From positions 1 through 64,000 of the IMG/VR virus record IMGVR_UViG_3300005911_000002: a DNA stretch of 64,000 nt, one strand, 5' to 3'. Origin of the DNA: a virus. This document shows positions 7,500-56,418 of the stretch, piece after piece (the first letter of the stretch is position 1; each line of letters begins with the position of its first letter). The translations under genes and the position numbers were made by a program. The notes under the pieces were generated by a model that had not been told where the DNA came from, made no database searches, and worked only from the letters and a program-made list of their open reading frames with translations.

Positions 7500-9083
7500 T
7501 CATGCTGAATACCCCCACTTCTTTTTAATAATAGCTGCTACCTTCATATAGTTTACAGCGTGTACAGTGTCGTCTGGATTAGTCTGCTCATGAGTGTAGT
7601 ATTCTTCCATGTCGCCATGTCGATCTTTTCTATATTCTATTCGTACATTAAGAAAATCCTGTATAAAATCTTTTCTAATCTGCAGTGCTCTTGGCCATAT
7701 TATCTCAGATTGTTTTATGCCTCTGAATAAATCCGTTATCTGTGCGTCTCTATTAATAGTATATGTTTTCTTTTTACCGTTGTACTTTAGGGGGCATATC
7801 TGTGTCCCACTATTGTACACTTCAAATACCCGGTTAGCCCCAAATACTTTTTTTAGTTTTGGGTTCTGATACCCAGCGCCCACACCCCAGTCTGTTCCAA
7901 GGGCGGTCCACGAGAACATGCCAAGCCTATAACAAATATCATCTAGCTGGGCGTTCTGGTCTATGTCCTTGCCTTTCATGTACTTTTTAAGATGTACAAT
8001 CTTCATCCTACCATCTACAATGGCCCCTATGACAAATACTGTAAATGACACCGTCCCCAGACCCCAGTCAATACCAGCAAACAGCGGGTACATGTGATAT
8101 TTTGCCTGGATCTGGTCAATCGGGCAATTGTCGTACTGCTCGCACTCGAAATCTCTTTCATTTAGAGGTACCTCAGAGGAGTCGAAGGGCAACCCTAATA
8201 TTTCGTTATAAAGTGTTACCCGATCGGTATTCTTCACCTTGATGTAAAATTTAAGATACCTATCTGCGTCCATGATTCCTGCAAGGAGAAGCTGCGGCAT
8301 TCTAAACCCACGCATGAATCTAGTCTCACCCAGTTGATATCTCCCCTGCCACGATCCGTTTAATACGTTTAAAATTGTTGTTCTTTTAGAAGTTTTGTAG
8401 CAGTTGCTACAGATTATGCCTGCCCGTCCGATGTTTCGTAACCCTAGTATATTATGTTTCCCACACACATGGCACGCAACTACCCATTCCTCAGCAGTGG
8501 ATTTATTCATAAAGGTGGTGGATAATATATTATCTATTGCTTTTGGGGTTCCTGTGTATATGGTTACCCCACCGTCTTTGGCATGAGACAGACATTCGTT
8601 TGCAACATATATAGCATCCGAAGTTATATCCTGCATTTCATCAATGTATAGCCTATCCCCAGGGATACCACGAGCAGTATCACCATTTCCCCTGAGTGTG
8701 ATTAAATCTATAGCCGACAGATTCGCAAATCGAATCATGGATTGGGAATTTACACAATGTGAGGCTCTTGTGAAATTTACGCGGATCAACTTGTTACCGT
8801 AAACTGTGTCAGTTAGCCTGTCTCGGTGGAACCTTTTTACGTGATTATTCGTAGCACTTGCATAGATATAGTTTAATCTTGTAAGGCACGCCTCCGCGGT
8901 CAGTCTGTTGCCGATGAACGTGGATTTTTCAATCTGCCGACCACCCATAACTATTATATCTGGGTGGTTTACGTTGTATATTCTCTGCCACCATGGGCGC
9001 TTAGCTAAGCTGAACGGCTCCCCTTTAGAAGTGAACGCTAATTCGGAAAATTTAGATATTGAGTAAGTGCCCATAATATACAT
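7500..9083 (-). CDS. terL: Terminase large subunit
   Basis: A 527-residue DNA packaging motor. A Walker A-type sequence MGGRQIEKST sits at residues 46-55, Walker B RLYIDE at 144-149, and a coupling motif TGTP at 177-180. The nuclease half begins with GIDWG (Asp339), followed by a second acidic motif TDWGVG near 402 and a C-terminal DDTVHAVNY near 508, as in RNase H-fold terminase nucleases. A four-cysteine zinc site (C204, C207, C225, C228) is inserted between the ATPase and nuclease parts. It is encoded far from the capsid genes and on the opposite strand. The start may be ATG 9083 or the in-frame ATG at 9074. Confidence 0.88.
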   Translation of the reverse strand: MYIMGTYSISKFSELAFTSKGEPFSLAKRPWWQRIYNVNHPDIIVMGGRQIEKSTFIGNRLTAEACLTRLNYIYASATNNHVKRFHRDRLTDTVYGNKLIRVNFTRASHCVNSQSMIRFANLSAIDLITLRGNGDTARGIPGDRLYIDEMQDITSDAIYVANECLSHAKDGGVTIYTGTPKAIDNILSTTFMNKSTAEEWVVACHVCGKHNILGLRNIGRAGIICSNCYKTSKRTTILNVLNGSWQGRYQLGETRFMRGFRMPQLLLAGIMDADRYLKFYIKVKNTDRVTLYNEILGLPFDSSEVPLNERDFECEQYDNCPIDQIQAKYHMYPLFAGIDWGLGTVSFTVFVIGAIVDGRMKIVHLKKYMKGKDIDQNAQLDDICYRLGMFSWTALGTDWGVGAGYQNPKLKKVFGANRVFEVYNSGTQICPLKYNGKKKTYTINRDAQITDLFRGIKQSEIIWPRALQIRKDFIQDFLNVRIEYRKDRHGDMEEYYTHEQTNPDDTVHAVNYMKVAAIIKKKWGYSA

Positions 9084-16158: not shown

Positions 16159-18759
16159 ATGGAGATACAACGAAGTTTATTTGAGAGTATTGAGGAATCT
16201 TCTCCTGTAGCCTGCAACGGTTGCCCGTACAACAAGCACCATAGGGTGCGGTTTTACGAAGAGCGGGAGATTAAATGCTCAGATACTCTGGTAATCGTAG
16301 ACGCTAGGACGGACCACGAAATGGGTGGTTTCAAATATGACAGATACATTAAAAAATTCTACCCCGGGGCTATGGTAATTCCACATATTATGTGCGGTCT
16401 CAAATATCCAGGGGAGATACCAAAACAAGGTGCCATGTCTCACTGCAAGAGACTAATAAACAAGTACATAGAAAAGTTTAATTACAAGAAAATAATCGTT
16501 AGCGGCTCAAAAGCTGTTAGCCAATTCATAGGTACTATCGGAGGCGACCTTAAGAATCATGGTATAATATACGATTATAACGGAACACCCGCAATTGTGG
16601 AGCTTGGTCTTGCTATGCTGATGAGCTCCCCCGAGATATCCGATATGGTAGTTAAAAAAGACCCTAGTAAGATGAAGCCCATAGAACTAAAATATACTGT
16701 GATATCATCCGATTCGGAGCTGGAGCCAATAATCCTTGATGTAATGAATGACATTCTTACATCAGAGATAGTGGCGCTCGATATTGAAACTAACGGTCTA
16801 AAGGACGTCCTGTACGGAATAACAGATAAAGAAGTATACCTCGAACAGGAGATGTTCAAAGCTGACATAAAGAAACCTATAATAACAGCCATAGGGATAG
16901 GGACAGATGATAACATATACATCTTCCCTGTCAAGCATTTCCAGAGAGAATACGTAGGGACAATGCTGTATGACGTGATTCTGCCAACAGTACTAAGTAG
17001 GGAGGTAGTGGGGGCAAACATAGGGTTTGATCTGCAATGGTTAAATAGAGCACTCAACATGCCTTTCCCGGAAAAAGCCAGGGATATTTTGTTAGAGGAT
17101 TTTCTTGAAAGACAACTCCCCGGACATGGTGGTTTGAAAGAGAACACTAGAAGAAATTTCTATTACCCTGACTGGGAATCAGATATACATCTTTACCCAA
17201 GCTATGAATTAATACCATGGCCTAGACTCGAGGAGTACCTCGCACATGACATAAATGCAACACGGATGAACGCTAGGTACTACCCACCAAGAATACAACA
17301 TGCGTGGGAGTTCTACAACGATGTTCTTACAACAGCGGTGGTTTCATACGCCAAGATGCAAAACAGAGGTATGAAGCTTATACCAGCATCTGGTAGCGGC
17401 ATAGACAAGAAAATACAAAGTAGTTACATGCGTATTCAGAAAGAAGCGAAGCTGGTTGGCAGCAAGAAACCAAGGATCAACCCAGGGTCAAACAAAGACC
17501 TAGCGCATGTGTTGTTTGAATTGTCTGGCTTCTCCCCCGTAGAGGAAACGGATTCGGGAATGCCATCTCTCAATAAAGAGTCATTGCATATCTTCTCAAC
17601 AAAGCTCGGTAGTGATTTTGCAGAGGCGGTACTTGAATGGCGAGCTCTCACGAAGATAAAAAGCACCTACCTATCCATCCCAACAAAAAAGTCCACTAAG
17701 GACTATATTGTACACACAAATTACTCCTTGTACCGAACAGCGTCTGGAAGAACAGCGTCAAGTAACCCAAACTTTCAGAACCTCCCGCGTGGAGATTCTC
17801 CGGTTGCTGCCCTGGTAAAAAAGATGGTGGTGTCGAGATACAGAGGCGGTCTCATAATAGAGAGCGACTTTAGCCAGGCCGAGCTTAGATGTCTTGCATC
17901 TGTGTCGAGTGATAGAAACATGATTCGCGAGTACTTGCAGCAGATGGCAGATGCTGGCTATTCCCCCGACCTACATAAACTTGCTGCATCTTATATGCTG
18001 GACTTGCCCGTGTCGGAGATAACCAAGGCACTACGCCAGTTCGGTAAAGTCATCAACTTCGGTTTGTTCTATGGTATGACAGAGTATGGCCTACATTACA
18101 ATCTACGGAAAGTATGTGCTGAAAAAGGGATAGATGTACCGCATGAAGTTGAGGACTGCATAGTTCTCCTCACTAAGTATTTCAAAGGATTCCCCGGAGT
18201 AGATAGGTACATGAAAAAATACCGTGCGTTTGCGAAAAACAACGGTTACGTTCTATCACCAATGGGTAGGAAGAGAGTTCTTATGGGGGCTACTGACAAG
18301 AATTCTCCAAAGCATAAAGGTGCCATGAACAAAGCTATCAACACACCCATACAAGTTCTAGCAAGCGACCTTAAGATAATGACCGTAAACAAAATTACGA
18401 AGTTGATCGAAGATCAGGATCTACCATGCTCCCTTATTAATGAGGTACATGACTCCTGCATAATAGATCTACACGACGCAAAATATGCGGAGGAAGTTAT
18501 TGGGCTGATGGAGATGTGTTTCGGTGCCAGTTCCTTTCCAGGAATGGTTGTGCCTATGATAGCTGATAGTAAGATTGGTCCGTCCTGGGGAGAAACTAAG
18601 ACGGTTATGCCTAAGAGATGTTGGAAATGTGCCAACATGCAGAGTGGAATATGCTTGATAGGTATGACCAACATAAGTAAAGGGTTTCTCGAAGATACCC
18701 TACAAGCTGAGAATAGATATATACCTTGTTTGGGGTATAAAAAGATAGATAAAAAATAA
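16159..18759 (+). CDS. polA: Family A DNA polymerase with N-terminal UDG-like domain
   Basis: An 866-residue polymerase. Residues 1-150 have a CNGCPY start (C19, C22), a second Cys near 38 and VSGSKAVSQFIG, like uracil-DNA-glycosylase-fold domains fused to some phage polymerases (SPO1 type). The 3'-5' exonuclease follows: LDIETNG (about 207), GANIGFDLQW (about 285), YLAHDINATR (about 361). Polymerase motifs: RTASGRTASSNPNFQNLPRG (about 529), motif A ESDFSQAELR (about 570), motif B RQFGKVINFGLFYG (about 630), motif C NEVHDS (about 761). The C-terminus adds CWKC plus two more cysteines. A TTAGGAG ribosome site precedes the ATG. Confidence 0.92.
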   Translation: MEIQRSLFESIEESSPVACNGCPYNKHHRVRFYEEREIKCSDTLVIVDARTDHEMGGFKYDRYIKKFYPGAMVIPHIMCGLKYPGEIPKQGAMSHCKRLINKYIEKFNYKKIIVSGSKAVSQFIGTIGGDLKNHGIIYDYNGTPAIVELGLAMLMSSPEISDMVVKKDPSKMKPIELKYTVISSDSELEPIILDVMNDILTSEIVALDIETNGLKDVLYGITDKEVYLEQEMFKADIKKPIITAIGIGTDDNIYIFPVKHFQREYVGTMLYDVILPTVLSREVVGANIGFDLQWLNRALNMPFPEKARDILLEDFLERQLPGHGGLKENTRRNFYYPDWESDIHLYPSYELIPWPRLEEYLAHDINATRMNARYYPPRIQHAWEFYNDVLTTAVVSYAKMQNRGMKLIPASGSGIDKKIQSSYMRIQKEAKLVGSKKPRINPGSNKDLAHVLFELSGFSPVEETDSGMPSLNKESLHIFSTKLGSDFAEAVLEWRALTKIKSTYLSIPTKKSTKDYIVHTNYSLYRTASGRTASSNPNFQNLPRGDSPVAALVKKMVVSRYRGGLIIESDFSQAELRCLASVSSDRNMIREYLQQMADAGYSPDLHKLAASYMLDLPVSEITKALRQFGKVINFGLFYGMTEYGLHYNLRKVCAEKGIDVPHEVEDCIVLLTKYFKGFPGVDRYMKKYRAFAKNNGYVLSPMGRKRVLMGATDKNSPKHKGAMNKAINTPIQVLASDLKIMTVNKITKLIEDQDLPCSLINEVHDSCIIDLHDAKYAEEVIGLMEMCFGASSFPGMVVPMIADSKIGPSWGETKTVMPKRCWKCANMQSGICLIGMTNISKGFLEDTLQAENRYIPCLGYKKIDKK
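18734..18741 (+). promoter_or_regulatory. GGTATAAA element inside the polymerase 3' end
   Basis: GGTATAAA within the last codons of the polymerase gene, 30 bp before a 32-codon membrane-peptide gene. Codons at this place also explain the bases, so it may be coincidence. Confidence 0.3.
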
Positions 18760-22044: not shown

Positions 22045-23481
22045 TTAAAATCTAACTCGGCGCCGGACCATCGGTCTTACGCTAGCGTTAGTTAAGTTTA
22101 ATGGTTGTGAGAATAGCTGATCTACTCTCATTTTGTTTTTCTTCTTTTCTATCTCTTCGTAAGTATCCGGGAAGAAACCTCCCGAGCCAGCTATCCCCGC
22201 ACCGCCTACTATTGCAGCGGCTGGGTACCCCATGCCACCCCGAGCTTTCTCCAGCAACTCCTCAGTGCGGTCACGGTCAGTAAATGCCGGCAAGTGTTCG
22301 TCGGTTGCGTCGATATAGTTCTTCCGGGAACTCGAAAGATCACCGTCAGCGTGGCTTTTAATCGCCTTTCGCGCGGCAACTGCATTATCACTGGCAGTCC
22401 CAAGGTTCTTGTGGGCAACACCTTGTTCCATCGAAGGTGTTGTGTCGGAAAGGTTGCGCATGGTATTTTTAGCACTATCAAAAGCGTCGTTGGCCTTAAC
22501 CCTACTATTATTAAGCTTTTCCGCCTTCCATTGTTCTGATTTCCACATATTCCTAGTTTTAACTACCTGGTCATCGAGGCCTTTGTACCTAGCAGCGCCA
22601 TCCTTAAGAACTTTCTCTAACCCCTTGATCTTCCTACCTTTTAAATAAGCATAGATAGCCCCCCCAGCAGCAATGGTTGTCCCTACTCCTGCAAGTATAA
22701 TCCTCATGGCTTGGTTGATTGTTGTGTCCTCAGCTAATTTGTAGTTCTTGTTATTCTGCTCTTCTGAGTACATTCTAGACCCAAGAATAGTCCCAGAGGC
22801 CAGCATACCGCCCCCAACTAATCCGCTAAATCTTGCTCTATCGTATGTGTATTCTCCGACGTCACTTAGCTCCTGTAGCTCGGAACCCTTACGTTTAAAT
22901 TCATTCAGTGTATTGATCATATCTGTTTTAGTTTTATTAACATGCCCCATATAATCGGGCTTTCTGGCCATCGTGCCCTGTAAATCGTCGAGGTGTCCCC
23001 TAGCTGCTTTCAGGTTTATGGCCGAATCTGCCATATCATTCTGTTTAGCATGAACTTGGTCAGAAAGATCTTTTATCATACTCCGTGCTCGTGAATAGGA
23101 CTCTGTTGGAAGGCGCTCGGCGTCCTGCTTAAGTGCCATTATTTTACTTTTCAGATCCTCTATGTCAGCCACATTCTGCTTAAATATACCCTCCGCTCTG
23201 AGTGCCTTATCTGTCCTGCTAGCAAGATCGGCCATAACCTCAGGACCATTTTGAAATATCTTCTGAGCATCTGCATTACGTGATGTTGCCTCAAGGAACT
23301 CAGCCCCTATGTCTGCAAGGTCTTCTCTTCGTTTCTTAAGCTCTGGCATAAGTTTTTTTAACTTGTGCCTTGCGCCTGCACCCATCAAAGCTATAGCAGA
23401 ACCTACAGCAATAAGTACCGCCGGTACCTTATAGTTCATAGCTGGTGCTGGCTTTCTATCTTCTGAATAATATAGTCCCAT
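22045..23481 (-). CDS. Coiled-coil membrane protein of the RNA polymerase operon
   Basis: A 478-residue protein with a TTTGGAGG ribosome site. It begins with a transmembrane segment (about 19-36, VPAVLIAVGSAIALMGAG), then a long helical region rich in Lys, Asp and Glu (40-205), Gly-rich hydrophobic segments near 214-231 and 255-276, another helical stretch, a Gly-rich segment near 425-445 and a basic tail. The layout resembles the 372-residue neighbour, although I see no clear sequence repeat between them. It is 13 nt downstream of the RNA polymerase gene. Function unknown. Confidence 0.5.
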   Translation of the reverse strand: MGLYYSEDRKPAPAMNYKVPAVLIAVGSAIALMGAGARHKLKKLMPELKKRREDLADIGAEFLEATSRNADAQKIFQNGPEVMADLASRTDKALRAEGIFKQNVADIEDLKSKIMALKQDAERLPTESYSRARSMIKDLSDQVHAKQNDMADSAINLKAARGHLDDLQGTMARKPDYMGHVNKTKTDMINTLNEFKRKGSELQELSDVGEYTYDRARFSGLVGGGMLASGTILGSRMYSEEQNNKNYKLAEDTTINQAMRIILAGVGTTIAAGGAIYAYLKGRKIKGLEKVLKDGAARYKGLDDQVVKTRNMWKSEQWKAEKLNNSRVKANDAFDSAKNTMRNLSDTTPSMEQGVAHKNLGTASDNAVAARKAIKSHADGDLSSSRKNYIDATDEHLPAFTDRDRTEELLEKARGGMGYPAAAIVGGAGIAGSGGFFPDTYEEIEKKKNKMRVDQLFSQPLNLTNASVRPMVRRRVRF

Positions 23482-23494
23482 GATTCCTCCAAAT

Positions 23495-26400
23495 TTATTC
23501 TATAACGGACGGGCCGTAAACATATCTAGTAAACATAGATGATTCTGGTCCAGCTATGTGAGTACTATCTCCAAACGCTACTCCCTTCTGTAACGATCCT
23601 TTGAGCTCTCTGTACCCAAGACGCTGTAACCAGTCCTGGTTCATAAGTGGAGACCTGTTAGTTCCAATTATAACCTTGTCGGCCTTTATCGGAGTTGTAA
23701 ACACTCTAACTGTTTCCACACCCTCGTTTAGAAGAGCTTCCATCATCTTATCATCTATCATTGACCTGATAGGAAATCCTGACACACTTTCAGCCAGACG
23801 TTTCCCAACAGAAAATTCTACATCCATTTCTTTAACTGAGTTCTCATTATAATGGTTTACAAACGATGTGTCAACTATGTCTCCAGGAACTACTGATGAT
23901 GATGTTCCTGCATCTGTCACCCTGGAAAATTTACCCATTGACCTCGTAACTACTTCTGCAGTAGATCTCTTAATCCCAACTCCTGCAGATTGGTACAGAC
24001 TTGTTAACTCATCAGCTATAAAATCTAGCGCCGCGTCTGCACCTTTAATGTCCTTAATATCCATTGGATGTATATTTCCATAGCTAACAGAATCCCCAGC
24101 ATGTATCATGTCCCCCTTTTTTACTTTAAGACCTACGGCCGCTGGCACATATAATTTTTTAGTTCCTATATTGACGTCCCAGCCGCCTATAGATGATTCA
24201 TTAATATCCGTAACAAACCCATCCTTAGGGGCTAGGATAGCTCTATCTTTAATCTTCTTAGGTAGTTGGGTTATCTGCCTTATTCTGTCTAAAGACCCGA
24301 TAGCCCCAACACTTGATCCTACTGTAGAACCAGTATGGAACACCCTCATAGCCATTTGAACAAGAGGCTCTCCTAATGTCTGGGCTGCCAACGTTCCTAC
24401 GTTATCACCTTTTCCAGGAAGAATCCCGTTTGCCAGATAGCCATGGCATCTTCTGCAGATACCCTTTATAGCTTTGCACTTAAGAGGAGATCGTGCGTAT
24501 ACTTCCCTAATACCATGATTCTTTAAGTTTTTAATTGCGTTAGCGTCAAGGTGCTGATCTTTTGGGTGAATAACCTTACCACCCACCCGGATGTTACGTA
24601 CTGCAAATCTATTAAGCACCTCTGGTGATGATACAGGGAACATTTTACCTTCTGATGTTTTACAGTCCTCGGTTGTAATAGTTATTCCAGACGAAGCAGC
24701 GAGTATCTCTTTACTGAATGCACCCGGCTCTACAACCGACTTAGCTTTGGACACACCACCCATCCTGGCAGCATAACCCATACCCCAAAAGGCAGATGGG
24801 CTGAGTCCCGATGCGTATGAATCCTTTGATATTATCGGAGGAACGGATCCACCAGGACCCTGGAACATAATAGGTGAACCGATTATCTGTGTAACCGGTG
24901 CCCACTGTCCTTTTGCCCCCGACGCGTCTACATAGTCGTAATATGTGTCTTTCATTCTATCTTTGATAACGTCTTGTATCTTACCTTGGATCTCAGCAGC
25001 GTTCTCTACGCCAGTAACCGTCTTTATAAGGTCGTCGACTTCTTTTATTGGTGCTAAATCATCGTAATTCAAAGACATGCCACGTCTTGTTGCATACGTA
25101 TCTCCAATTAGTTTGACGTCTTTTAGAACCTTCCCTATTTGGTCGGGAGTATTCTTCACCACGCTCTTTACAGCAGCGGACAATGATCCGTCAGTAACTG
25201 CTTCGTTAATATCAACACCATCTGGGAGCGCGTTATTCACCATGATACGTCCTATATTAGTCATTTTGCGTTTAACTTTTATCATATCATTTTCGGAAAT
25301 ATCGCCGGCAAGGTATGCTTCGAGAGCATCCGTAGTCGTTTTATATTTCTTGTCAGTACTCTTACCATCCTTAGTCATAGCATACAGCCCTGTTAGGTCG
25401 TCCCAGCTAGGCATGTTCATAACCTCCCCCTTAGTTGGGTGAATTACGTTATTACTTGGAAGCATGAGGTGCGCCTCGGCCTCAGCCTTAGCAGTTACGG
25501 GAGTATGTACCAGTACCTTGTCACCGTCGAAGTCCATGTTAAACCCTTTAACAACCATCAAAGGTACACGTATAGATTTTCCCTGTACCAGCTTAGGCTT
25601 AAATGCCATAACCCCATACTTGTGTAACGTCGGGGCTCTATTAACTATAACATGTTTTTCGTCCATAACCTTTCCCAGAATCCTGGCTGCTACCGGGGTC
25701 TTGTTATCCACTTCAGCCATAGCCTCGAACGGAGTCATACCTGCAGATAGCATCTTTCTTTTGATCATTGGTTCGAACATCTTATATGCCATCTCTTCCG
25801 GAATACCTATCTCATCTATATCCATCTTAGTGTCAATCGATACCACGCCAGCACCAGTTAGGTTCTGTCTTTTCTTGACCATCTTCTTTTGGAAGTATCC
25901 CTCTTTTGGGCTGTCCCCTGCGATTAGTTCTACAAGTCCTTTCTGGTTAGCTTTCTTTGGGTTGAGTCTAGCTTTATCTGAGGCAGTCGCGTATCCCATA
26001 AGCCTCTTAGTTTGATCGTAGATATCCTTAGCTATATTTTCCTGCTCACGCTGAGGAACAAACTTACTTTTCGATGCATTATTTAATAGTATTAAATCTT
26101 TATATAGATCATTTAAAGGTGAGTTAATTAAATTCCCAGTATCATCTGGATACACGGGCCTAATCTTAGGTGGTACAACCGGCACATTGTGTAAAAAGAA
26201 TGATCTAGCTGTGAGTTTCCCGTCTATCATGTTCTTGAGAAACCTCATCTTCTTGTTCAATTTATTCAGCGCACTACCTTCTGCAGTAGCCGCTTCTTTT
26301 TTTAGGTTAGCAAGCTCCTCCTCCGGAGATATTTTGGATAGCATGGCCTGCATAGCGTCCCCAAATTTTTTACCATCAACCTCAGTTCTGCCCGCTACTA

Positions 26401-29400
26401 AGTCGTCGTACTGCGTTTGGGTTATATCCAATATATTCTTAATAGCTGGCTCAAATACTGGGTTAGGTATCTTACGTGTAAGTGCTATGTGTGACCAATT
26501 CTCTCCGTCGGTGCCGCCAGTTATCTTAATATCAAATAACCCGTTTTTTTCCGGTAGCAATGTTTTTGCAATTACCACTTTTGCCTCAGTAACCTCTCCC
26601 TTAGACTGCCCTAAAATATCCCTGTCGGTAAGTGGTACAAGTTTTATCTGATCGCCACTCTTCTTAGGCTTTATCCCGGCGCCCTTTAAATAGTCCATAA
26701 ACATATGGTATGAAAAAGTTGGGCTCGGTGTAGGTAGTTGTGATCCTGTGATATACGATCTCCAAAATTCAGGGTTGTCCTGTGATTTATATATGGCTAT
26801 GTCTCGGAGGTTGGCCTTAGCACCGTGTGCCATTAGAGAATACATCGGCAACATCCCTACGGTCTTCCCCCCAGACTTACCACCAGCAGTAGGAGTCTTA
26901 TCGAATCCTGTCGGCCCATAATAACTTCTAGCAGAGAACCCCTTATCCTCTTTGTATTTTAGTTTATAAATATATTGCTTTCCCCAAAGAACCTTGTCGG
27001 TAGTCTCTTCCCCCTCTACCATGAGTTTCTCATTGGGCTTTATTCCTAGTTCATCAGCTTTTTTTTTAACCGAAGTATAATAACTTTCATCGCTAAACCC
27101 TGGAACCATTATAGGCGCACCTTGCGCATCCGCAACCCTGCCGAGAACAACTTCGTGCTCCTGTCCAACGTTCAATCTCTTCTGTACTGGTAGAGGTGAC
27201 ATGATCAACCCTATCTTCTCACCATTAGGAGCCGTCGGGGCTTTCTCATCTGGGAATACTGCAGAAATTATACCCTTGTTACCGTATCGTCCGGAAACCT
27301 TATCACCCTTCTTTGCTTGCTCGGATGTTTTTACCTCTATGAAAATAGCCTTACCAGTATCGCGTACTGATATAACTTCACCGGAAGCTCCATGCTCCCA
27401 TCTAACTATCTTTTCCCTGAAAGGACTAGACAATGTAGAATGCACTTTTGCCAAAAGCTTGTCTTCCTCGGACAACGACTTTTCTACAAGGTATGCGGCG
27501 ATCACACTTCCGTCGTGAACCTTCGACCCTTTCTTAACAATACCATCCTGATCCAAGTTACTTGTCTCCAGGGAGGATAACTTACCCATCGCAACGTTCT
27601 TAAAACGTGTGAAATCGAAGTGAGCTCCCTTTTTTGAAATCTCCATCTTGTACATATGCTCTGACGTCATCTTCTTGGCACCAGATTCAAACAGCACGAT
27701 AGCATCCTCTGAATTCATAGAATGATACGGCATATAAGCCACATTAAGATTAACGCCAAGAGCCAGTGTATCGTCTTTTTCATAGTTTGACCTCATAAGT
27801 TTATCGCCTTTCTTAACGGTGCTACCTTCTGATACAGATGCTTCTGTAGTAACGTAAGAACTATCCCCTATCTTGTAATTCTGGTAGAAGGGTAGTTTCT
27901 CCGTTTCACCATTCTCATACTCGACGGTCATGCTCTTCTTTCCAACCGAAGTAACCTTCCCAGCTCCTTGTGCGGTAGGGACAGAATCCCGTGCCATAAT
28001 CTTCTCGAAGGAGGTTCCTGTTCTGTCATCAAGTGTCTGTATAAGGGGGGCTTCTGGGTTCTTTAGTAGTAATGTCTGCCCTGCCATCTTGGCGGACATA
28101 TTAACCCTGTTACCCATATTACTGCTTAAAAACGGAGTTAGGTTTGTTGATGGTGAGTATAGCTCAGTAGCATACCTGAATATATAATCCACCTCGCTAG
28201 AAGGAACTTTATCCTCACTCCCCTTACTAACGGCATATACCTCGTCATCACGCCATTGTTTCTTATTGTAGTCATATTGGCCTGCAAATGCGATCGTGTA
28301 CTTGTACATGTCATCATTAGATACACTCTCTTCCTGGCCTGTTTTTGGATTATATAATTTCTTAGAAAACGCATCGCCCTTCTGCATAGTTCCAACAGGA
28401 AGTTTGACAGAAATACCAGCAGCGTCATCCGGTGTATGGAGTGGATCCAGTACCCCTGCAGAAGAGCCGTAAACCATCATGGCTTTTTCGGTTATAGCAT
28501 GGTCTGACTCAATACCACCCTCACCTTTCCTGGTGTAGTGTATATCCTCATCTATAAAATTTAGCGGATTTACAAAATCTATAGGGGCTGCAAGCGACGA
28601 CTGGTTAAATAGCGGTGTTATATTCCCATTAAGGTAGTTAGTTGGGACAATCTCTTTAATAGTTTTACGAGTTCTCATACGAACTTTTAACGCACCCTGG
28701 CTACTCTTGACCTTGCGTGGATTTAGTATATAATCGTCCGATAACATGGCTACCTCATCAACTGCCTTTGCAAAATACGAGTCATCCTTGTTATCCTGTT
28801 TCCCGTTGTCCTTGAAAACCTCGAGTATCCTTGATGACGTAGCTAACAGGGTTTTGGCATCCATCTTTTCGAAGGATGTTCCGAGAGTTTTCTCAGTTGT
28901 TTTTTTGTCGAGGACTGTGTCGTTAAACCTGTCCTCCACAGCTCCCTCGGCGGCGTCTATATCTTTGTATGCTTTGTATGTATAGTTTGTTGCAAAGTTT
29001 AAAAAGTCAGACTCATGCTTGCTACCCCTAGAAGAGTTCGCTTCAAAAAGTTCTGGCCCCCATGCTTCTCGCATATCAGAATCAGGTATATCCAGGTGTG
29101 TAAGTATCGAGTACACCGGATATTTTCTGCCTTTAAGTACAACAGTGAATATCTTCTTTACAGGGTCAAGAGACATTGTTAGGTTGTGTCCTTTTTGGAG
29201 GTTCAACTTGGCCTCGATCTCCCCGTTTTTCTTCACTTCGGTGTATACTCCAGACCGCAGCCTGAGCATTTTGGTTACCTTGAATTCGGTACCACCCACG
29301 ATATATGTGCCAGCAGCTGTTCTAACGGGCATATCCCCAATCTTGACCTTAGCCTTATCAATTAGCTCAGTACCAACCCTAAAGGAAAAGGTTCCGTAAA

Positions 29401-29605
29401 TAGGTACAGTCAGGGACTTATCGCTTTCCAGGAGTTTCCTGAATTTTTCAGGGTTTATTACATCCGCGTTGTTTGTATTAATACTTAGCTTGTCTAGTGA
29501 GAGTGATCTGCTACCGTCCGTTATTGGGAACGCTGCTTCCTTGTATTTCTCAAATACCTCAGCGAGTCTATCGTTAAATTCCTTGGCACTTTTTATATTA
29601 TACAT
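23495..29605 (-). CDS. Single-chain multisubunit-type RNA polymerase (fused beta and beta-prime)
   Basis: A 2036-residue fusion of the two catalytic subunits of a multisubunit RNA polymerase. Beta-type landmarks come first: GDKVSGRYGNKG (about 765) and MYSLMAHGAKANLRD. The beta-prime part begins near residue 1147 (VPPKIRPVYPDD). It has NRAPTLHKYGVM, then the catalytic triad NMDFDGD (about 1360), a zinc site (TEDC near 1648 with LKCKAIKGICRRC near 1720), and the trigger-loop/bridge region TLGEPLVQMAMRVFHTG. The usual N-terminal beta-prime zinc module was not seen. I chose ATG 29605 because AAGGGG lies 11 nt upstream and a host-type promoter sits 35 bp above; an in-frame ATG at 29725 would lie upstream of that promoter. 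Confidence 0.92.
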   Translation of the reverse strand: MYNIKSAKEFNDRLAEVFEKYKEAAFPITDGSRSLSLDKLSINTNNADVINPEKFRKLLESDKSLTVPIYGTFSFRVGTELIDKAKVKIGDMPVRTAAGTYIVGGTEFKVTKMLRLRSGVYTEVKKNGEIEAKLNLQKGHNLTMSLDPVKKIFTVVLKGRKYPVYSILTHLDIPDSDMREAWGPELFEANSSRGSKHESDFLNFATNYTYKAYKDIDAAEGAVEDRFNDTVLDKKTTEKTLGTSFEKMDAKTLLATSSRILEVFKDNGKQDNKDDSYFAKAVDEVAMLSDDYILNPRKVKSSQGALKVRMRTRKTIKEIVPTNYLNGNITPLFNQSSLAAPIDFVNPLNFIDEDIHYTRKGEGGIESDHAITEKAMMVYGSSAGVLDPLHTPDDAAGISVKLPVGTMQKGDAFSKKLYNPKTGQEESVSNDDMYKYTIAFAGQYDYNKKQWRDDEVYAVSKGSEDKVPSSEVDYIFRYATELYSPSTNLTPFLSSNMGNRVNMSAKMAGQTLLLKNPEAPLIQTLDDRTGTSFEKIMARDSVPTAQGAGKVTSVGKKSMTVEYENGETEKLPFYQNYKIGDSSYVTTEASVSEGSTVKKGDKLMRSNYEKDDTLALGVNLNVAYMPYHSMNSEDAIVLFESGAKKMTSEHMYKMEISKKGAHFDFTRFKNVAMGKLSSLETSNLDQDGIVKKGSKVHDGSVIAAYLVEKSLSEEDKLLAKVHSTLSSPFREKIVRWEHGASGEVISVRDTGKAIFIEVKTSEQAKKGDKVSGRYGNKGIISAVFPDEKAPTAPNGEKIGLIMSPLPVQKRLNVGQEHEVVLGRVADAQGAPIMVPGFSDESYYTSVKKKADELGIKPNEKLMVEGEETTDKVLWGKQYIYKLKYKEDKGFSARSYYGPTGFDKTPTAGGKSGGKTVGMLPMYSLMAHGAKANLRDIAIYKSQDNPEFWRSYITGSQLPTPSPTFSYHMFMDYLKGAGIKPKKSGDQIKLVPLTDRDILGQSKGEVTEAKVVIAKTLLPEKNGLFDIKITGGTDGENWSHIALTRKIPNPVFEPAIKNILDITQTQYDDLVAGRTEVDGKKFGDAMQAMLSKISPEEELANLKKEAATAEGSALNKLNKKMRFLKNMIDGKLTARSFFLHNVPVVPPKIRPVYPDDTGNLINSPLNDLYKDLILLNNASKSKFVPQREQENIAKDIYDQTKRLMGYATASDKARLNPKKANQKGLVELIAGDSPKEGYFQKKMVKKRQNLTGAGVVSIDTKMDIDEIGIPEEMAYKMFEPMIKRKMLSAGMTPFEAMAEVDNKTPVAARILGKVMDEKHVIVNRAPTLHKYGVMAFKPKLVQGKSIRVPLMVVKGFNMDFDGDKVLVHTPVTAKAEAEAHLMLPSNNVIHPTKGEVMNMPSWDDLTGLYAMTKDGKSTDKKYKTTTDALEAYLAGDISENDMIKVKRKMTNIGRIMVNNALPDGVDINEAVTDGSLSAAVKSVVKNTPDQIGKVLKDVKLIGDTYATRRGMSLNYDDLAPIKEVDDLIKTVTGVENAAEIQGKIQDVIKDRMKDTYYDYVDASGAKGQWAPVTQIIGSPIMFQGPGGSVPPIISKDSYASGLSPSAFWGMGYAARMGGVSKAKSVVEPGAFSKEILAASSGITITTEDCKTSEGKMFPVSSPEVLNRFAVRNIRVGGKVIHPKDQHLDANAIKNLKNHGIREVYARSPLKCKAIKGICRRCHGYLANGILPGKGDNVGTLAAQTLGEPLVQMAMRVFHTGSTVGSSVGAIGSLDRIRQITQLPKKIKDRAILAPKDGFVTDINESSIGGWDVNIGTKKLYVPAAVGLKVKKGDMIHAGDSVSYGNIHPMDIKDIKGADAALDFIADELTSLYQSAGVGIKRSTAEVVTRSMGKFSRVTDAGTSSSVVPGDIVDTSFVNHYNENSVKEMDVEFSVGKRLAESVSGFPIRSMIDDKMMEALLNEGVETVRVFTTPIKADKVIIGTNRSPLMNQDWLQRLGYRELKGSLQKGVAFGDSTHIAGPESSMFTRYVYGPSVIE

Positions 29606-29639: not shown

Positions 29640-29668
29640 ATTCTATCACGTTCAAGATTTGTTGTCAA
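29640..29668 (-). promoter_or_regulatory. Host-type promoter for the fused RNA polymerase operon
   Basis: On the minus strand: TTGACA (29668-29663), 17-bp spacer, TAGAAT (29645-29640) with a TGA extended -10. The expected leader is about 28 nt before the ATG at 29605. The iteron array starts 60 bp upstream. Confidence 0.75.
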
Positions 29669-29727
29669 TTTGCATAATATATTATATATTAACCCAGTAA
29701 TAGGAAGGTGACTAGGAAATATCATTC

Positions 29728-29798
29728 TGTCATGTTTTGACCCATAAATGTCATGTTTCGGGTCAAAAATGTCATGTTTCGGGTCAAAAATGTCATGT
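29728..29798 (+). repeat. Four 21-bp-spaced TGTCATGT iterons
   Basis: TGTCATGT occurs at 29728, 29749, 29770 and 29791, exactly 21 bp (two helical turns) apart. Copies two and three share the same 21-bp unit. TTTTGACCC (29735-29743) and GGGTCAAAA (29760-29768) also form a 9-bp inverted repeat inside the array. Confidence 0.85.
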
Positions 29799-30201
29799 CT
29801 AAAAATCAGTGCTCACCTACTACTATACTATACTATAACTATTATATTTATATATATATAATAATAGAATACATGACAAAATACCAGAATTATTAATGGT
29901 AACTACTCATGTACGGATTGAAAAAAATTATTAATTAGTGTTTCATTTTTTTTTATGGTTTCCCTAAGGGGGTACATTTTTTTTTCTACATTTTTGTCAT
30001 GTCTGAGAGTAAATGCCTTGGTACGACTGGTCGGAAGCGCGAGACATTTTGTTTTCAAAATGTCATGTCTAGTTTTGATAGAAGTCTGATATCCCCGTCT
30101 ATGACTAGTCTAGACCCCTGTCAAAAACGTCATATTTTTGTCATGTCATTTTGTCCTGTTTGGGTATTTTTGTCCTGTTTTGTTTATGATCGCACATAGT
30201 T

Positions 30202-30223: not shown

Positions 30224-30231
30224 GGTATAAA
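30224..30231 (+). promoter_or_regulatory. GGTATAAA element
   Basis: TTGGTATAAA, with a TG one base before the TATAAA hexamer, 17 bp before the ATG at 30249 and just after the palindrome. If it is a -10 element the leader is very short. Confidence 0.45.
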
Positions 30232-32902: not shown

Positions 32903-33196
32903 ATGTTTACAATATACAAAAAAACAAAACCGGTAGCTATGGTAGGGGTAGTTCAGGGAGTTGTCCTGGTATCCTCAAATACGCTACTTATCCACAACAT
33001 TCTAAAGAATGTCCTTTCAAGACCTCATTTTGTCAGGGATAAGAAGGGGCATAAAGTCCAGACTAACGACAAGAATGTAATCATAGAGGATATCCTAAGA
33101 ACTAAGGTATATTCTCCATACCGGGTAGTAAAAGAGAATGCGTTGCTAGGTGCGACTAAATATGTACATAAGGTAGTGTTATACGATGTTAACTAA
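32903..33196 (+). CDS. Small head-operon protein, unknown
   Basis: A 97-residue basic protein with a TAAGGAG ribosome site. It has an N-terminal hydrophobic strand-rich part (PVAMVGVVQGVVLVSSN) and a Lys-rich remainder. Its end overlaps the protease start by 11 nt. No motif recognised. Confidence 0.5.
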   Translation: MFTIYKKTKPVAMVGVVQGVVLVSSNTLLIHNILKNVLSRPHFVRDKKGHKVQTNDKNVIIEDILRTKVYSPYRVVKENALLGATKYVHKVVLYDVN

Positions 33197-35213
33197 ATAT
33201 GTTCAATGGGCGAGTGTGCTTCCTGACGGCCGACCCGCTAATTACCTGATCGACCCGAATGTTAAAGTAGCTGCGGCTGTTTTATCTGAGAGTGCCGAGA
33301 TACATCCTGAAATTGTGGAGTTCATCGAGAACCTACAGCCCGAGGATACCAAGAGCTATGTCCTAGCAATAGCTATGGGTTGTGGGGAGTTCTGGGGTTC
33401 CAACCTCAATGCGGATTACTTCGGGTGGGATGAACTATACCCGGCAGACCCCAAGGCCAAGTATGGCTTTAAAACTTTTATGGGTAACAAAATGTTCCGC
33501 AGGCATAAGCATACCGACACTAGCCCTTACTTTGGGAGAGTTGTTATGGTGGCGTACAATGAGCAGATGGGTCGGGTCGAGGTAATATACACACTTGATC
33601 ACGACAAACCAGAGAATGACAAAACGCTTAGAAACATGGACAAGGGAATATTCCCACAAGTGTCTATGGGGTGTAAGATAGCGTATGATGTATGCACAGT
33701 TTGCGGGCATAGATCGGACAACGGAAAAAGACGATGTGACCATATAAGACTTAGGAGAAATCATATTTATCCTGATGGAACTAAAGCTATGATGGATAAT
33801 ATACGACCTATATTCTTTGATCTTTCCATAGTAGATGTTCCAGCGGATTGCACGGCCTGGAGTGTTAAGAAGGTAGCTTCTATGGCGTATATTCCTGATA
33901 TGAAGATGTCGTCTATTAGCAAGAGAGTGCCATCCCAGACAATCGTAACAAACGACGTCAAAGAGTGGCTACCAGGAGCATTACTAGTAAACAGCGCTAT
34001 GGATAATAGTGTGGATATTCCAGTAGAATCGTTAATGGAAAGAGTGTCTCCGGAGTCGTTACTTCATGGTATGATGCTTATGGGTATGAAGCCTAAGCCA
34101 AATGAGTTTTGCCGTATGATAAGTAAGATGTTTGGCATAGATACTCCTGAAACATTCTCGCCACACATCGTGGACAGTGTTCCAACGGATGAGTTTGCAG
34201 CGTTTAAAGATATGATCTCTAAGGTAGTGAAGTCCGTTCCGGAGTTAGACGGCATAAAAGACTTTGTGAAAGATAGGACGTCAGCATCTCCGAGAGTACT
34301 AAGGATTGTCGTGGTTAAGAAATCACCTAAAGAAGTAATGGTTAAGAATGCTATGGAACATACTCCTATACAGGACACACTGAATAACTTGTACTTTATG
34401 CTGGGAGGCCAGATGTCAGATATCGCTGTTAAAAGTGCATCAGTTATAGGGCTCCCAATATTACGTAGAGTTCTGGACTATTTTGACATTGCTAAAATGA
34501 GGCGGGTACTGGCATTTCTTGTCGGGGCACGCGTTATTAATCAGGGTACGAATATAGCAACAACGCCATATACTGGAGTATATGACAACTCAGCTGAGTT
34601 GGCTACATATACGGATATTATGACAGGCATGCCCGCTGCTGTAAGTCTTCAAATGTTTAACAACATGACAGGTAAAACAGCTGGTATTGCATCTAAAGTA
34701 TTGATACCACCAGCGGTAGCGTACGCTACAAAGGCGTATCTGGACTACAAAGTTAATCGGGATGGTGTTTCCACACCTACCCAGGAATTAGTTCGGAATA
34801 ACCCAAAGATGATGACGCTCTTACTTGCTATATCACCATGGTTAGCAAAGAAGACCGGTCTTAATGAAGCGTCCCTTCTACTGGGAGCGGGTGTAGCGGG
34901 TTACGGCGCTGGCCAAGTAGCCGCAAAGATGGCTTCGTATGATGAAATAATTCTTACAGATGACAACAGGGATGACATATTCACAAAGTTAGCGATGGAA
35001 AATATAACCCCGCAGAGAGCGGAGTTACTAAAGAATATAGCAGCGGTGTTTCTCGCTGGGGCAGGGATAGGTGCTGTTGTAGGTGTTTCACCTGCATCAG
35101 ATGAGATTAAGGTAGAACCCCAACCTAGACCACAGCAGCAGAACCAACAGGAATTGCGGGAACAGTACGCTAAGAGATATTATAGCATGTTAAAAAGGAG
35201 GGGAGAGTTATGA
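33186..35213 (+). CDS. Prohead maturation protease with long C-terminal extension
   Basis: A 675-residue protein. The N-terminal 230 residues look like a herpesvirus/T4 gp21-type serine protease of phage heads: FRRHKHTDTSPYFGRV (His near 105), FPQVSMGCKI (Ser near 160), and FFDLSIVDVPAD (about 211-222). A zinc-like set VCTVCG...RRCDH (about 168-184) is inserted between the second and third motifs. The remaining 440 residues are an extension with hydrophobic segments near 590-610 and 620-640 and several K-x-A-[SG] tetrapeptides, perhaps a scaffold part cut by the protease. Overlaps with both neighbours support coupled translation. Confidence 0.7.
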   Translation: MLTKYVQWASVLPDGRPANYLIDPNVKVAAAVLSESAEIHPEIVEFIENLQPEDTKSYVLAIAMGCGEFWGSNLNADYFGWDELYPADPKAKYGFKTFMGNKMFRRHKHTDTSPYFGRVVMVAYNEQMGRVEVIYTLDHDKPENDKTLRNMDKGIFPQVSMGCKIAYDVCTVCGHRSDNGKRRCDHIRLRRNHIYPDGTKAMMDNIRPIFFDLSIVDVPADCTAWSVKKVASMAYIPDMKMSSISKRVPSQTIVTNDVKEWLPGALLVNSAMDNSVDIPVESLMERVSPESLLHGMMLMGMKPKPNEFCRMISKMFGIDTPETFSPHIVDSVPTDEFAAFKDMISKVVKSVPELDGIKDFVKDRTSASPRVLRIVVVKKSPKEVMVKNAMEHTPIQDTLNNLYFMLGGQMSDIAVKSASVIGLPILRRVLDYFDIAKMRRVLAFLVGARVINQGTNIATTPYTGVYDNSAELATYTDIMTGMPAAVSLQMFNNMTGKTAGIASKVLIPPAVAYATKAYLDYKVNRDGVSTPTQELVRNNPKMMTLLLAISPWLAKKTGLNEASLLLGAGVAGYGAGQVAAKMASYDEIILTDDNRDDIFTKLAMENITPQRAELLKNIAAVFLAGAGIGAVVGVSPASDEIKVEPQPRPQQQNQQELREQYAKRYYSMLKRRGEL

Positions 35214-40524: not shown

Positions 40525-41004
40525 ATGCGAGTAGTAATAGAACCTAAAACACAACTACCATATCAGAATAAAGAGTTATCAGATGATAGATATAAGCAGC
40601 TACTGCTGTTTAAGTGTATCGAAGAGATAAAAAAAGTAATGGCTTCGGGGATATTTAAACACCCTACGGGAGCACTTATGAACTCTATAAACGGGTATGT
40701 TGTTGGCGAATATATCATTATCTATTCAGATAAACAATACGCGACAGCGCAGGAGTTCGGGGTTAAGCCCCATGCTATGTGGTATCTACTTGGGAAGACC
40801 GTCCCGATTAAAATATTCAACACATTTGGCGGTCCTCCTAAAACGATCTATAGGAAGGTTACCTTCGAAGCGTTGTCCAGGGGTAAGTGGCATCATCCGG
40901 GTTCTCCGGGGAAATACTTTATGAAAACAGGTATTGACAAAGCAATGTCCCAGGCAACGGAGTTAAGGATGAAGATGATAAGTGGGGGGAATGTATTCAT
41001 ATGA
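40525..41004 (+). CDS. HK97 gp10-like tail-completion / neck protein
   Basis: A 159-residue protein with a GGGGGAG ribosome site. The segment SDKQYATAQEFGVKPHAMWY (about 70-90) corresponds to the YA-x-x-x-EFG-x-x-P hallmark of HK97 gp10-like proteins, which complete the head-tail joint. Position after connector-like genes agrees. The 3' end overlaps the radical SAM gene by 4 nt. Confidence 0.65.
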   Translation: MRVVIEPKTQLPYQNKELSDDRYKQLLLFKCIEEIKKVMASGIFKHPTGALMNSINGYVVGEYIIIYSDKQYATAQEFGVKPHAMWYLLGKTVPIKIFNTFGGPPKTIYRKVTFEALSRGKWHHPGSPGKYFMKTGIDKAMSQATELRMKMISGGNVFI

Positions 41005-53777: not shown

Positions 53778-55705
53778 TATGCCCTCCCCGTAGCAGTTAG
53801 TACTTGTTGCATCAGCCCTTCAATTTTAGACATATATTCCCTGGATTCATCTATATTTACTTTTGATAATTCAGCATAGGATGCCATTATATTACCCGAC
53901 AGCCTATTAGCATAATCGACTGAAGTAAACTCAGTTATAAGTATATCTAATACCGCAAGCATATCTACACTAGTGGTTTCGAGCTTTAGTTTCCTCAGCT
54001 CCTGACACAAGCTACCTTCGTATGTAGATGTTGTAGGCGTTGCCTTAAATACATCTTTAGTTGCACCCTTGCCAATGTCATCCCCGAGTTTTTTAAGACC
54101 CGCGGTATCGGCTGTGCTCTTTATATCCTCTAAAAAATTATCTTTAAAATCTTTAACGGGGGTAGAGTCTAACTTGTTATACGCAGATATTACACTGACT
54201 ACTTCAGTATTAAACGAAGTTAGCATGGTCTCGGTAGTTGACCGTAGTTCCGGTGTCATGACTTGCGCTCCAGTTATAAGGTCCTCTACAATCCTAAGGG
54301 CAGCACTAGCTTTATATACAACCTCGGTAGTATCCGGCTCCTCCCACGCAGACACTGCAGTTGCTGCCGATGTATACGCTGACTTTGCCACGAGAGGCAT
54401 ACTGGCTACAGCTGCACGCCCAACACTTGACGTTGCAATAGAGTCCAGATATGAAAGCATATCAGTAAACGAATCGTAAACGTCACGATAATACGGTAAC
54501 CCCTTCGACCTAGATGTCGATTGCGTATACGCCGCGGTCTTCTGCTCCAGGTCTTCGATTTTACCTTTTATAGCTCCCGGCATTACTTTTTGTAAAAAAT
54601 TAGATCGAGCATATTTCTCGGTATCGCTGAACAACGACATAGCCATATTAAGTTGATATCGTATGCCACTGGTATTCTCCGAGTTATATAGCGTGTAAGA
54701 TACTATATTTGAGAGAATATCACTGAACGATACCCCATATAAAATACCCTGCACTAAAATCCCTTCCAAGGTTGTTGTATCGTACTGACGACTAAAGCTT
54801 ATAAGATTTGCCGATGGCATGCTTCTCCCCATTAGTTGGGCAACTTGCTCTGGTGTGAATGACCCGGACATCTCTTGTAGTGCTATGGATGTAATAATAC
54901 TTTCTGGAGTAGCTCCCGACGTCATACCTACTATAACCTGCGTGGCAACCCCGTTAGGAAAGTATTTTCCGAATATACTCGATATCATAGTGTTCTGGGC
55001 TGTACCTTGCATAACTGCGGAGAGTATTTCTGGAGGAAGTAGTGCCCTAAGCTCATTATAGGCAGCGTCTTTTACAATATCACTCGTAAGGTTACGTCCC
55101 ACAAGACCATTTAGCAGGGCCGCGGATATCTTAGAGTCTATTGTTGTAGGGAGTATTTCCTGTGGGAGTGTTTTATTAGATACCATTTGTATCAGACCCC
55201 AAGCATCACTTATGGTACTTGACATCCCAGATAGTACAGTTCTTAATACCTGGGCCCCAAGGTCATATCTGTACGGCTCAGTGCTAACTATATTCTTTAC
55301 AGTTGAGATTGTGCCAGATACGTCCGGTATGTCGTAGTTACCGCTCAATGCCTCACCCAGAAGAGAGCTTATTGGGCTAGCCATATTCTCCAGGGCGCTA
55401 ACAGCCTCGTCTCTAAGGGTAGTGGCATGGGATATCGCATTAAAACCCATCCCTAGTATAGTTGTTGGAGAAGTTGTCATCCTTTGCAGCATAGACGCTT
55501 GTATTCGGTCCGTAGTACTCGTGTCTTTTAGATTATCAATGGGTGTCATATTATACTGGTCCATTGTTTTTTTCATCTGACCTGCCAATGCTAGTGCAGT
55601 TCCTTCTTCTTTATCAAGGGTCTGGTTCTTCTGCTTTTTCCACTCCTTGTACTCTTTCAGAGAATTACGCACCTCACTGTCAGTATACCATGTGTATGTA
55701 GTCAT
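53777..55705 (-). CDS. Large tail/baseplate-region protein, unknown
   Basis: A 642-residue, largely helical protein. It starts with a Trp/Lys-rich helix (VRNSLKEYKEWKKQKNQTL), then a long Ser/Thr/Ala-rich helical body with many amphipathic repeats. No family recognised. Its position between the sigma factor and gp25-like genes suggests a baseplate or tail-inner role. The start overlaps the sigma-factor stop by 4 nt. Confidence 0.45.
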   Translation of the reverse strand: MTTYTWYTDSEVRNSLKEYKEWKKQKNQTLDKEEGTALALAGQMKKTMDQYNMTPIDNLKDTSTTDRIQASMLQRMTTSPTTILGMGFNAISHATTLRDEAVSALENMASPISSLLGEALSGNYDIPDVSGTISTVKNIVSTEPYRYDLGAQVLRTVLSGMSSTISDAWGLIQMVSNKTLPQEILPTTIDSKISAALLNGLVGRNLTSDIVKDAAYNELRALLPPEILSAVMQGTAQNTMISSIFGKYFPNGVATQVIVGMTSGATPESIITSIALQEMSGSFTPEQVAQLMGRSMPSANLISFSRQYDTTTLEGILVQGILYGVSFSDILSNIVSYTLYNSENTSGIRYQLNMAMSLFSDTEKYARSNFLQKVMPGAIKGKIEDLEQKTAAYTQSTSRSKGLPYYRDVYDSFTDMLSYLDSIATSSVGRAAVASMPLVAKSAYTSAATAVSAWEEPDTTEVVYKASAALRIVEDLITGAQVMTPELRSTTETMLTSFNTEVVSVISAYNKLDSTPVKDFKDNFLEDIKSTADTAGLKKLGDDIGKGATKDVFKATPTTSTYEGSLCQELRKLKLETTSVDMLAVLDILITEFTSVDYANRLSGNIMASYAELSKVNIDESREYMSKIEGLMQQVLTATGRA

Positions 55706-56418
55706 AATTTGCTTACTTTCTCTTTTAGTATATTTGAAATTCGCAGTCTAACTGAGCTAACCCACCTGGGTGACTTATTTTCCTGTATTGCAATATCTTG
55801 TGTAGATTTTCCGCTAAGTAGACTATCCATTATGCGATTTTCGGTCTCATCAAGTTCATACCTAGTCATCTCAAGTAAATCTTTTGGTGTGTAGTTCCGC
55901 ACAACGGAATCATCTCCACGTCCAACGTCAGCTTCTGGTTCGAGAGTATAATCTTTCCGAACCATTCTTCGTAGATCCCTTACTTGAGTTTGTGGTATAT
56001 TCATGTGGGTAGCTATCTCAAGCTCGTCAGGATCTCTCCCAAGGGATTCAGTGAGCTCCGTTACAGCCGTGTTATATGGTGAGATAAGTTGTATTTTACT
56101 TTCCGGGATTCTCCCCGTGTTTTGATGATTTCCAACATACCTATATAATTTTCTCAGATAGTAATCAACATGAGTTCCTATGGCAGCTTTCCCAGGTTTG
56201 TACGTTTCCAGAGCTTTGCCGGCTAGCCTATACCCCTCAGCCTTTATAGCTTGGAACGGTATCGGGGCGTTTCTATACTTACTTGCATGGTGAACTATAG
56301 CAGGTGTGAGGGACTCCATTAAATCATCAAGGGACTCTGTACTCCCCGTATCTTTCCAATCAGTCCATAACGCAAGCTGCCTATCAAATCTTGTTGTGGT
56401 ATTCGGCTGAGATTCCAT
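55702..56418 (-). CDS. Phage RNA polymerase sigma factor
   Basis: A 238-residue sigma-70-family protein. Region 2 covers about 30-105: FQAIKAEGYRLAGKALETYK, then IGTHVDYYLRKLYRYV and GRIPES. Region 3 is clear at about 115-150: TAVTELTESLGRDPDELEIA, the typical sigma region 3 opening. Region 4 (about 187-236) has a helix-turn-helix with STQDIAIQENKSPRWVSSVR. It would direct an RNA polymerase, host or the phage single-chain enzyme, to a phage promoter class. AGGGGGAG lies 8 nt before the ATG at 56418, so the 35-nt overlap with the hub gene is real. A sigma factor inside a baseplate operon is unusual. Confidence 0.78.
   Translation of the reverse strand: MESQPNTTTRFDRQLALWTDWKDTGSTESLDDLMESLTPAIVHHASKYRNAPIPFQAIKAEGYRLAGKALETYKPGKAAIGTHVDYYLRKLYRYVGNHQNTGRIPESKIQLISPYNTAVTELTESLGRDPDELEIATHMNIPQTQVRDLRRMVRKDYTLEPEADVGRGDDSVVRNYTPKDLLEMTRYELDETENRIMDSLLSGKSTQDIAIQENKSPRWVSSVRLRISNILKEKVSKL

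Follow-up and report, generated by a model that had tools for sequence, protein, structure and literature searches.

Natural rpoB-rpoC fusions, with beta followed by beta' in one frame, are found in bacteria such as Helicobacter and Wolbachia, and they encode RNA polymerases (RNAPs) of the usual bacterial make-up, in which alpha, omega and the N-terminal zinc module are all present. Among phages, the multimeric-RNAP-encoding Caudovirales (mReC) of Weinheimer and Aylward 2020 form a clade that branches deeply and outside both bacteria and archaea (PMC7481178). The mReC set comprises 97 sequences, was assembled with NADxDGD as an inclusion filter and is described as beta and beta' subunits, with the words fused and fusion applied only to crAssphage (PMC7481178). 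In Salmonella phage Arash, Gp206 is named 'beta' both in the deposited annotation and in the accessible part of the paper, which there makes no remark on a fusion (PMC10585845). Here we analyse a stretch of 64,000 nucleotides (the window), bases 1-64000 of the 73,212-base IMG/VR record IMGVR_UViG_3300005911_000002. The stretch belongs to a virus of bacteria and contains a minus-strand gene for a predicted single-chain beta-beta' RNAP. The initial annotation of this gene stated that known phage polymerases of the multisubunit type are split, which was too broad, as single-chain phage RNAPs of other kinds have been described (PMC10770324, PMC5467207). A phage single-chain form of rpoB-rpoC was not described in the open literature that we searched (most subscription papers lay beyond the search), and a cellular-type single-chain enzyme across a whole phage lineage appears to be unreported there.

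Anatomy of the single-chain polymerase

On the minus strand the RNAP frame opens at 29725 and closes with the stop codon at 23495 (2076 aa), without an internal stop. We prefer the in-frame start at 29605, as judged from the sequence, because a promoter-like site falls within the longer N-terminus and because GAAGGGG precedes the 29605 ATG, 11 bases 5' of it. Residue numbers throughout refer to this 2036-aa form. The protein was aligned with ten fused relatives and with E. coli RpoB+RpoC, which gave the following features.

23495..29605, minus strand: single-chain beta-beta' RNA polymerase, 2036 aa, from open frame, Pfam and PDB matches and AlphaFold2 models; alternative in-frame start 29725 (2076 aa)
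29640..29668, minus strand: promoter-like TTGACA-N17-TAGAAT, 5' of the 29605 start; consensus match only
26651..29605, minus strand: beta-like part, aa 1-985; last RpoB residue aligns with aa 985, Rpb2_6 at aa 557-895
27272..27307, minus strand: GDKVSGRYGNKG, aa 767-778; catalytic K769 and K777 correspond to E. coli beta K1065 and K1073
26606..26671, minus strand: beta/beta' junction, aa 979-1000; short linker from the last beta helix to a SPExI-like beta' start
23498..26650, minus strand: beta'-like part, aa 986-2036, by alignment to E. coli RpoC
26510..26515, minus strand: deletion point of the N-terminal beta' zinc module, aa 1031/1032; E. coli beta' 65-96 has no counterpart
25520..25540, minus strand: NMDFDGD, aa 1356-1362; Mg-binding D1358/D1360/D1362 correspond to E. 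coli beta' D460/D462/D464
24692..24799, minus strand: bridge helix, about aa 1603-1638; helix 164-199 of the beta' C-terminal (beta'C) model, and alignment
24446..24664, minus strand: second beta' zinc site; C1648, C1710, C1717 and C1720 correspond to E. coli C814, C888, C895 and C898
24335..24358, minus strand: trigger-loop core QMAMRVFH, aa 1750-1757; Q1750, M1753, R1754 and H1757 correspond to E. coli Q929, M932, R933 and H936

Five Pfam domains follow one another in the single protein: Rpb2_6 (4e-39), Rpb1_1, Rpb1_2 (3e-25), Rpb1_3 and Rpb1_5. Among solved structures, bacterial beta' chains are nearest in sequence (best PDB match, E about 1e-91). In the alignment beta and beta' meet at aa 985/986 and the first ~20 residues of RpoC are not retained; most of the large-insert stretches and the last 45 residues of RpoC are also absent relative to E. 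coli. Three arginines have counterparts as well (E. coli beta R678 and R1106 at R500 and R810, and beta' R425 at R1323). The rifampicin pocket differs, with A340, E353 and T358 in place of E. coli Q513, H526 and S531, so the phage enzyme would be expected to resist rifampicin. The initial annotation had read both halves in one 2036-residue frame, with GDKVSGRYGNKG for beta and NMDFDGD for beta', a complete beta' zinc site and no N-terminal beta' zinc module. All of this was borne out: the frame is continuous with its domains in order, both motifs align with E. coli catalytic residues, the four zinc cysteines have their E. coli partners, and E. coli beta' 65-96 is unmatched.

Structure prediction, which had been proposed as a check, agreed. 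AlphaFold2, run with phage-only alignments, gave a core model of aa 480-1660, a segment that contains the two barrels and the junction (mean predicted local distance difference test score, pLDDT, 88.0; predicted template modelling score, pTM, 0.81) and a beta'C model of aa 1440-2036 (mean pLDDT 88.8, pTM 0.79). For both models the top PDB matches in Foldseek were solved bacterial beta' chains (E 1e-39 for the core, 1e-29 for beta'C); the match of the core model covers its beta' part because Foldseek compares single chains.

It is scarcely credible that the gene is an assembly join, a read-through or an inactive relic. The one feature in favour is that NMDFDGD differs by one residue from the usual NADFDGD, which most fused relatives have; the M variant recurs, however, in relatives L041, L048, L064, L067, L074 and L112. 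The Asp triad, R1323 and some glycines and prolines are invariant across 61-63 aligned phage relatives, the catalytic lysines are conserved, and in the beta'C alignment of relatives Q1750 and the trigger-loop H1757 do not vary and the zinc cysteines hardly do. An assembly or read-through error, named at the outset as what might undo the finding, is excluded by at least 31 open reading frames (ORFs) from other contigs that cross the same fusion. The protein predicted from the window is thus confirmed as a full bacterial-type beta joined to beta', encoded by a phage and with complete catalytic domains.

Relatives, interruptions and phylogeny

A tblastn search of 50,697 phage records retrieved Vibrio phages D69, D148 and D181 and Salmonella phage Arash, at 29% identity over 70-92% of the protein. 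In Arash and D69 a gene of about 1525 aa holds beta and beta' to just beyond the Asp triad, and a gene of its own encodes beta'C (about 607 aa). Scans of IMG/VR with the window protein alone and for NMDFDGDK gave no match. An alignment-based scan of IMG/VR yielded 20 split-type loci, and a scan for the motif GFNxDFDGD yielded at least 120 stretches. In at least 31 ORFs of IMG/VR a single frame leads from the beta N-terminus into beta'C, and 22 of these ORFs lie entirely inside their locus; these relatives were sampled by motif and their frequencies are not estimates. Judged by these matches, the single-chain RNAP is a member of a widespread, barely described phage family and not a singleton. 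The searches also met another type of phage RNAP, which shares about 25% identity with that of the window (L042, L055, L091, L096, L103, L105, L141, Carin-5 and GN1); where both of its genes are visible, they are not joined, and beta' mostly precedes beta.

The view that all 'split' relatives are truly split was rejected for some of them. Vibrio phage D181 (L006, 2440-2720) and L015 (9104-9385) carry a group I intron (RF00028) at aa 495/496; the intron ORF is annotated as a homing endonuclease in D181, and a homing-endonuclease-like ORF is present in L015 too. The break in L049 is a TGA (1028-1030) at the position of the conserved Trp W948 of the window protein, and L049 probably reads TGA as Trp. 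An in-frame TGA within the RNAP gene was also seen in L047 (809-811), which suggests that both are phages reading TGA as an amino acid. That fused ORFs of large size (up to 2773 aa) might carry new domains was considered and rejected because the inserts look like inteins. These inserts measure 330-500 aa, occupy conserved active-site positions (beside K769, and close to aa 391, 577 and 1365), begin with Cys and end in ...GN|S, and one of the two tested has a LAGLIDADG domain by Pfam. Intein-like inserts were observed in L115 (two), L117, L048, L067, L040, L107, L114, L124, L132 and L149.

The initial annotation had also suggested a phylogenetic comparison, and on both halves the phages stand apart from bacteria. 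For beta' (N-terminal half to barrel) the family formed a single phage clade, of 83 rows in a FastTree tree (support 100), of 40 rows in a second tree (99) and of 17 rows in a more careful tree (100/99). On the beta' tree bacteria (100/98) and archaea (100/100) each formed their own clade, and the window RNAP falls outside the bacterial one, the bacteria being on one side of the 100/98 branch. A tree that joins the phages of this family with bacteria to the exclusion of other phage RNAPs was rejected (approximately unbiased test, p-AU 0.0025). The beta tree again separated phages from bacteria (support 95), and therefore both halves tell the same story. The window protein groups with L144 (96/94), and the sister pair L104/L134 is also fused. 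State changes counted on the tree with the 40-row clade, which carry no direction of change, numbered two for the joint between beta'N and beta'C and four for the beta/beta' joint, and at least two of these four are not true breaks.

A wider proposal, which we put forward tentatively and hold to be somewhat less probable than its negation, is that an extensive lineage of tailed phages, most of it uncultivated, would have an ancient RNAP. The one-chain beta-beta' form would be the original one in phages, packaged as a two-protein holoenzyme with a dedicated sigma and without alpha or omega, and the split forms would derive from it by intron, intein and gene-break events.

Sigma factor, missing subunits and probable virion packaging

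We consider it probable that the single-chain core and its own sigma factor, without alpha or omega, start phage transcription independently of the host enzyme, most likely after packaging in the virion. The chain would fold into a crab claw without an alpha platform because its halves are tethered, and tethering would take over the part that the alpha dimer and omega otherwise play in assembly. The phage sigma (55702-56418) would then bind the core and provide promoter recognition; core and sigma would be carried in the virion and enter the cell together with the DNA; and on entry the delivered enzyme would start phage transcription without the host enzyme. We infer the steps after folding, including the use of the phage's own sigma, and catalytic activity and self-assembly without alpha or omega are likewise predictions. 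Packaging in the window's phage is suggested by its orthology with Arash. The genes concerned, and others shared with Arash, are as follows.

55702..56418, minus strand: phage sigma factor, 238 aa, regions 2-4 (phrog_351, Sigma70_r3), ortholog of Arash Gp10
7500..9083, minus strand: terminase large subunit (TerL), related to Arash Gp1
33186..35213, plus strand: head-region protein, related to Arash Gp222
16159..18759, plus strand: family A DNA polymerase; the Arash counterpart is split into two genes (Arash 87636-89463)

Neither the 30 large relatives (101-211 kb) nor the window's record gave a match to alpha (PF01193) or omega (PF01192), and the controls were positive in 13/14 and 14/14 genomes, respectively; the initial annotation had likewise recognised no alpha or omega gene. 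Its description of the enzyme as possibly minimal holds for the number of subunits and fails for the catalytic core, which is essentially bacterial. That closeness to the bacterial core is what speaks for a polymerase which is not self-sufficient and borrows host alpha, and omega or sigma, for assembly or initiation. We find such borrowing quite improbable, given that a phage-specific sigma accompanies the polymerase in most relatives, that the AR9 non-virion RNAP core is catalytically active without alpha or omega (PMC7598289), and that fusion makes bringing beta and beta' together unnecessary. Sigma region 3 was matched in 22 of the 30 large relatives, 14 of them above the curated cut-off. 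The window sigma is homologous to those of the relatives, matches Arash Gp10 (phmmer, E=4e-20), and in a profile comparison matches regions 2-4 of SigA/RpoD/RpoS (E=1e-22).

Virion packaging of the self-sufficient enzyme draws on Arash. In the Arash study, mass spectrometry of purified particles detected the fused Gp206 most of all (3516 spectra, 128 unique peptides), with 1210 spectra for Gp216 (beta'C), 467 for the sigma Gp10 and 1148 for the helicase Gp217, next to 1333 for the capsid protein Gp226 and 877 for the portal Gp204 (PMC10585845). The window and Arash share TerL, sigma, the head-region protein and several tail proteins. In both, the sigma gene lies within a tail/hydrolase cluster. 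In Arash-type loci, and also in 19 single-chain loci, the RNAP gene is directly preceded by a co-directional portal gene.

A different course would be an enzyme outside the virion, made in the cell by host RNAP from a host-type promoter and transcribing middle and late genes with the phage sigma. The TTGACA-N17-TAGAAT site lies just upstream of the RNAP gene; the regions preceding genes in the window's phage are enriched in AGGAGG and TTGACA/TATAAT-like words, and a search for a phage-specific late promoter motif produced only Shine-Dalgarno and sigma70-like words. Non-virion RNAPs exist in jumbo phages (PMC7598289), and the window RNAP gene, unlike those of relatives, has no portal gene adjoining it. 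Against these stand the prominence of the orthologous core and sigma in the virion proteome of Arash (PMC10585845), the portal-RNAP synteny among relatives and the place of the sigma gene among tail genes, and we regard the non-virion course as unlikely.

The packaged, self-sufficient enzyme remains our preferred reading, and several points weigh against it. The window's record is a 73-kb fragment, so the lack of an alpha or omega gene in it proves little, and Pfam could overlook an alpha that has diverged strongly. The RNAP gene of the window has a host-like promoter of its own, and a search of the window for a portal gene by jackhmmer and hhalign found none, so none stands beside the RNAP gene. 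The row of the window is on a long branch in the beta' and beta trees. The Arash authors propose either early transcription or carry-over of abundant enzymes (PMC10585845).

The window RNAP gene is divergent from the adjacent head cluster, and directly upstream of it lies a repeat array.

29728..29798, minus strand: 21-bp direct repeat, 3.4 copies (Tandem Repeats Finder), directly upstream of the RNAP gene; core ACATGACA

Eight of the window's 11 copies of ACATGACA fall within 29728-30146, where 2.1 would be expected in the whole window. Four of them are phased at 21 bp; the array separates the RNAP gene from the divergent gene at 30231, and GC skew turns at the array. It is possible that the array represents an operator or replication-origin-like iterons. 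A perfect TTGACA-N17-TATAAT is present at 23846-23874, within the 3' end of the RNAP gene and upstream of the gene at 22045-23481. The third gene downstream of the RNAP gene (19001-20815) encodes a 604-aa protein whose N-terminal domain matches Pfam InPase (5e-32), a domain also present in numerous large phage proteins that bear head, antirestriction or lysis annotations. Elsewhere, two transposase genes (phrog_6620 and phrog_506; 44216-46017) lie in a low-GC patch (0.33 vs about 0.43) inside the structural region. The window also encodes an anaerobic ribonucleotide reductase (49985-52393), a radical-SAM protein (41001-41714) and a ThyX-type thymidylate synthase (9188-9997), and the reductase together with the radical-SAM protein may hint at an anaerobic host.

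Comparison with described polymerases

A one-chain core of bacterial type would show that the alpha/omega scaffold is dispensable while the catalytic machine stays bacterial, and would give structural and synthetic studies a polymerase that is encoded by one gene and can be programmed through sigma. A natural series, from one chain through two and three pieces to group I introns and intein-like active-site inserts, is also available in the family and suited to testing the origin of split viral RNAPs, including those of jumbo phages. Members that can be cultured in the laboratory (Arash and the Vibrio phages) bring it within experimental reach.

These cultured phages, Arash (Gp206 + Gp216, sigma Gp10) and Vibrio D69/D148/D181, belong to the same family, with beta fused to the N-terminal half of beta'. 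They resemble the window in lacking the N-terminal zinc module, in having their own sigma and in the shared TerL and tail proteins, and differ in that the C-terminal 600 residues of beta' are a separate gene, that the motif is ADYDGD and that the trigger loop, QMILGTKHD, is less canonical. With mReC the likeness is that of a cellular-type tailed-phage RNAP clade apart from cells, in trees built with our own references. The NADxDGD filter of that set is not matched by the window (NMDFDGD) or Arash (ADYDGD), whereas most fused relatives have NADFDGD. The PF07068 (Gp23-type) major capsid protein, an mReC trait, was found in 0/32 records, with the positive controls equally silent. The fused family may overlap mReC.

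The bacterial rpoB-rpoC fusions differ in their position, as the phage clade lies outside the bacterial clade in the beta' trees. Compared with the bacterial alpha2-beta-beta'-omega RNAP, the window has no alpha or omega match and no N-terminal beta' zinc module. The phiKZ/AR9 jumbo-phage RNAPs likewise have no alpha and no omega, and exist in virion and non-virion forms (PMC7598289); the Arash branch, too, has the break in beta' behind the barrel that they show. The jumbo-phage enzymes consist of 4-5 polypeptides and no sigma, in contrast to one chain plus a sigma70-type factor in the window (PMC7598289, PMC7824862). Both barrels are in one polypeptide, as in the window, in crAss-like phi14:2 gp66, P23-45 gp64/gp96 and YonO, some of which are packaged in virions (PMC10770324, PMC5467207). 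Those enzymes form a separate divergent clade with little similarity to cellular RNAPs, whereas the window protein carries the full bacterial beta and beta' domains.

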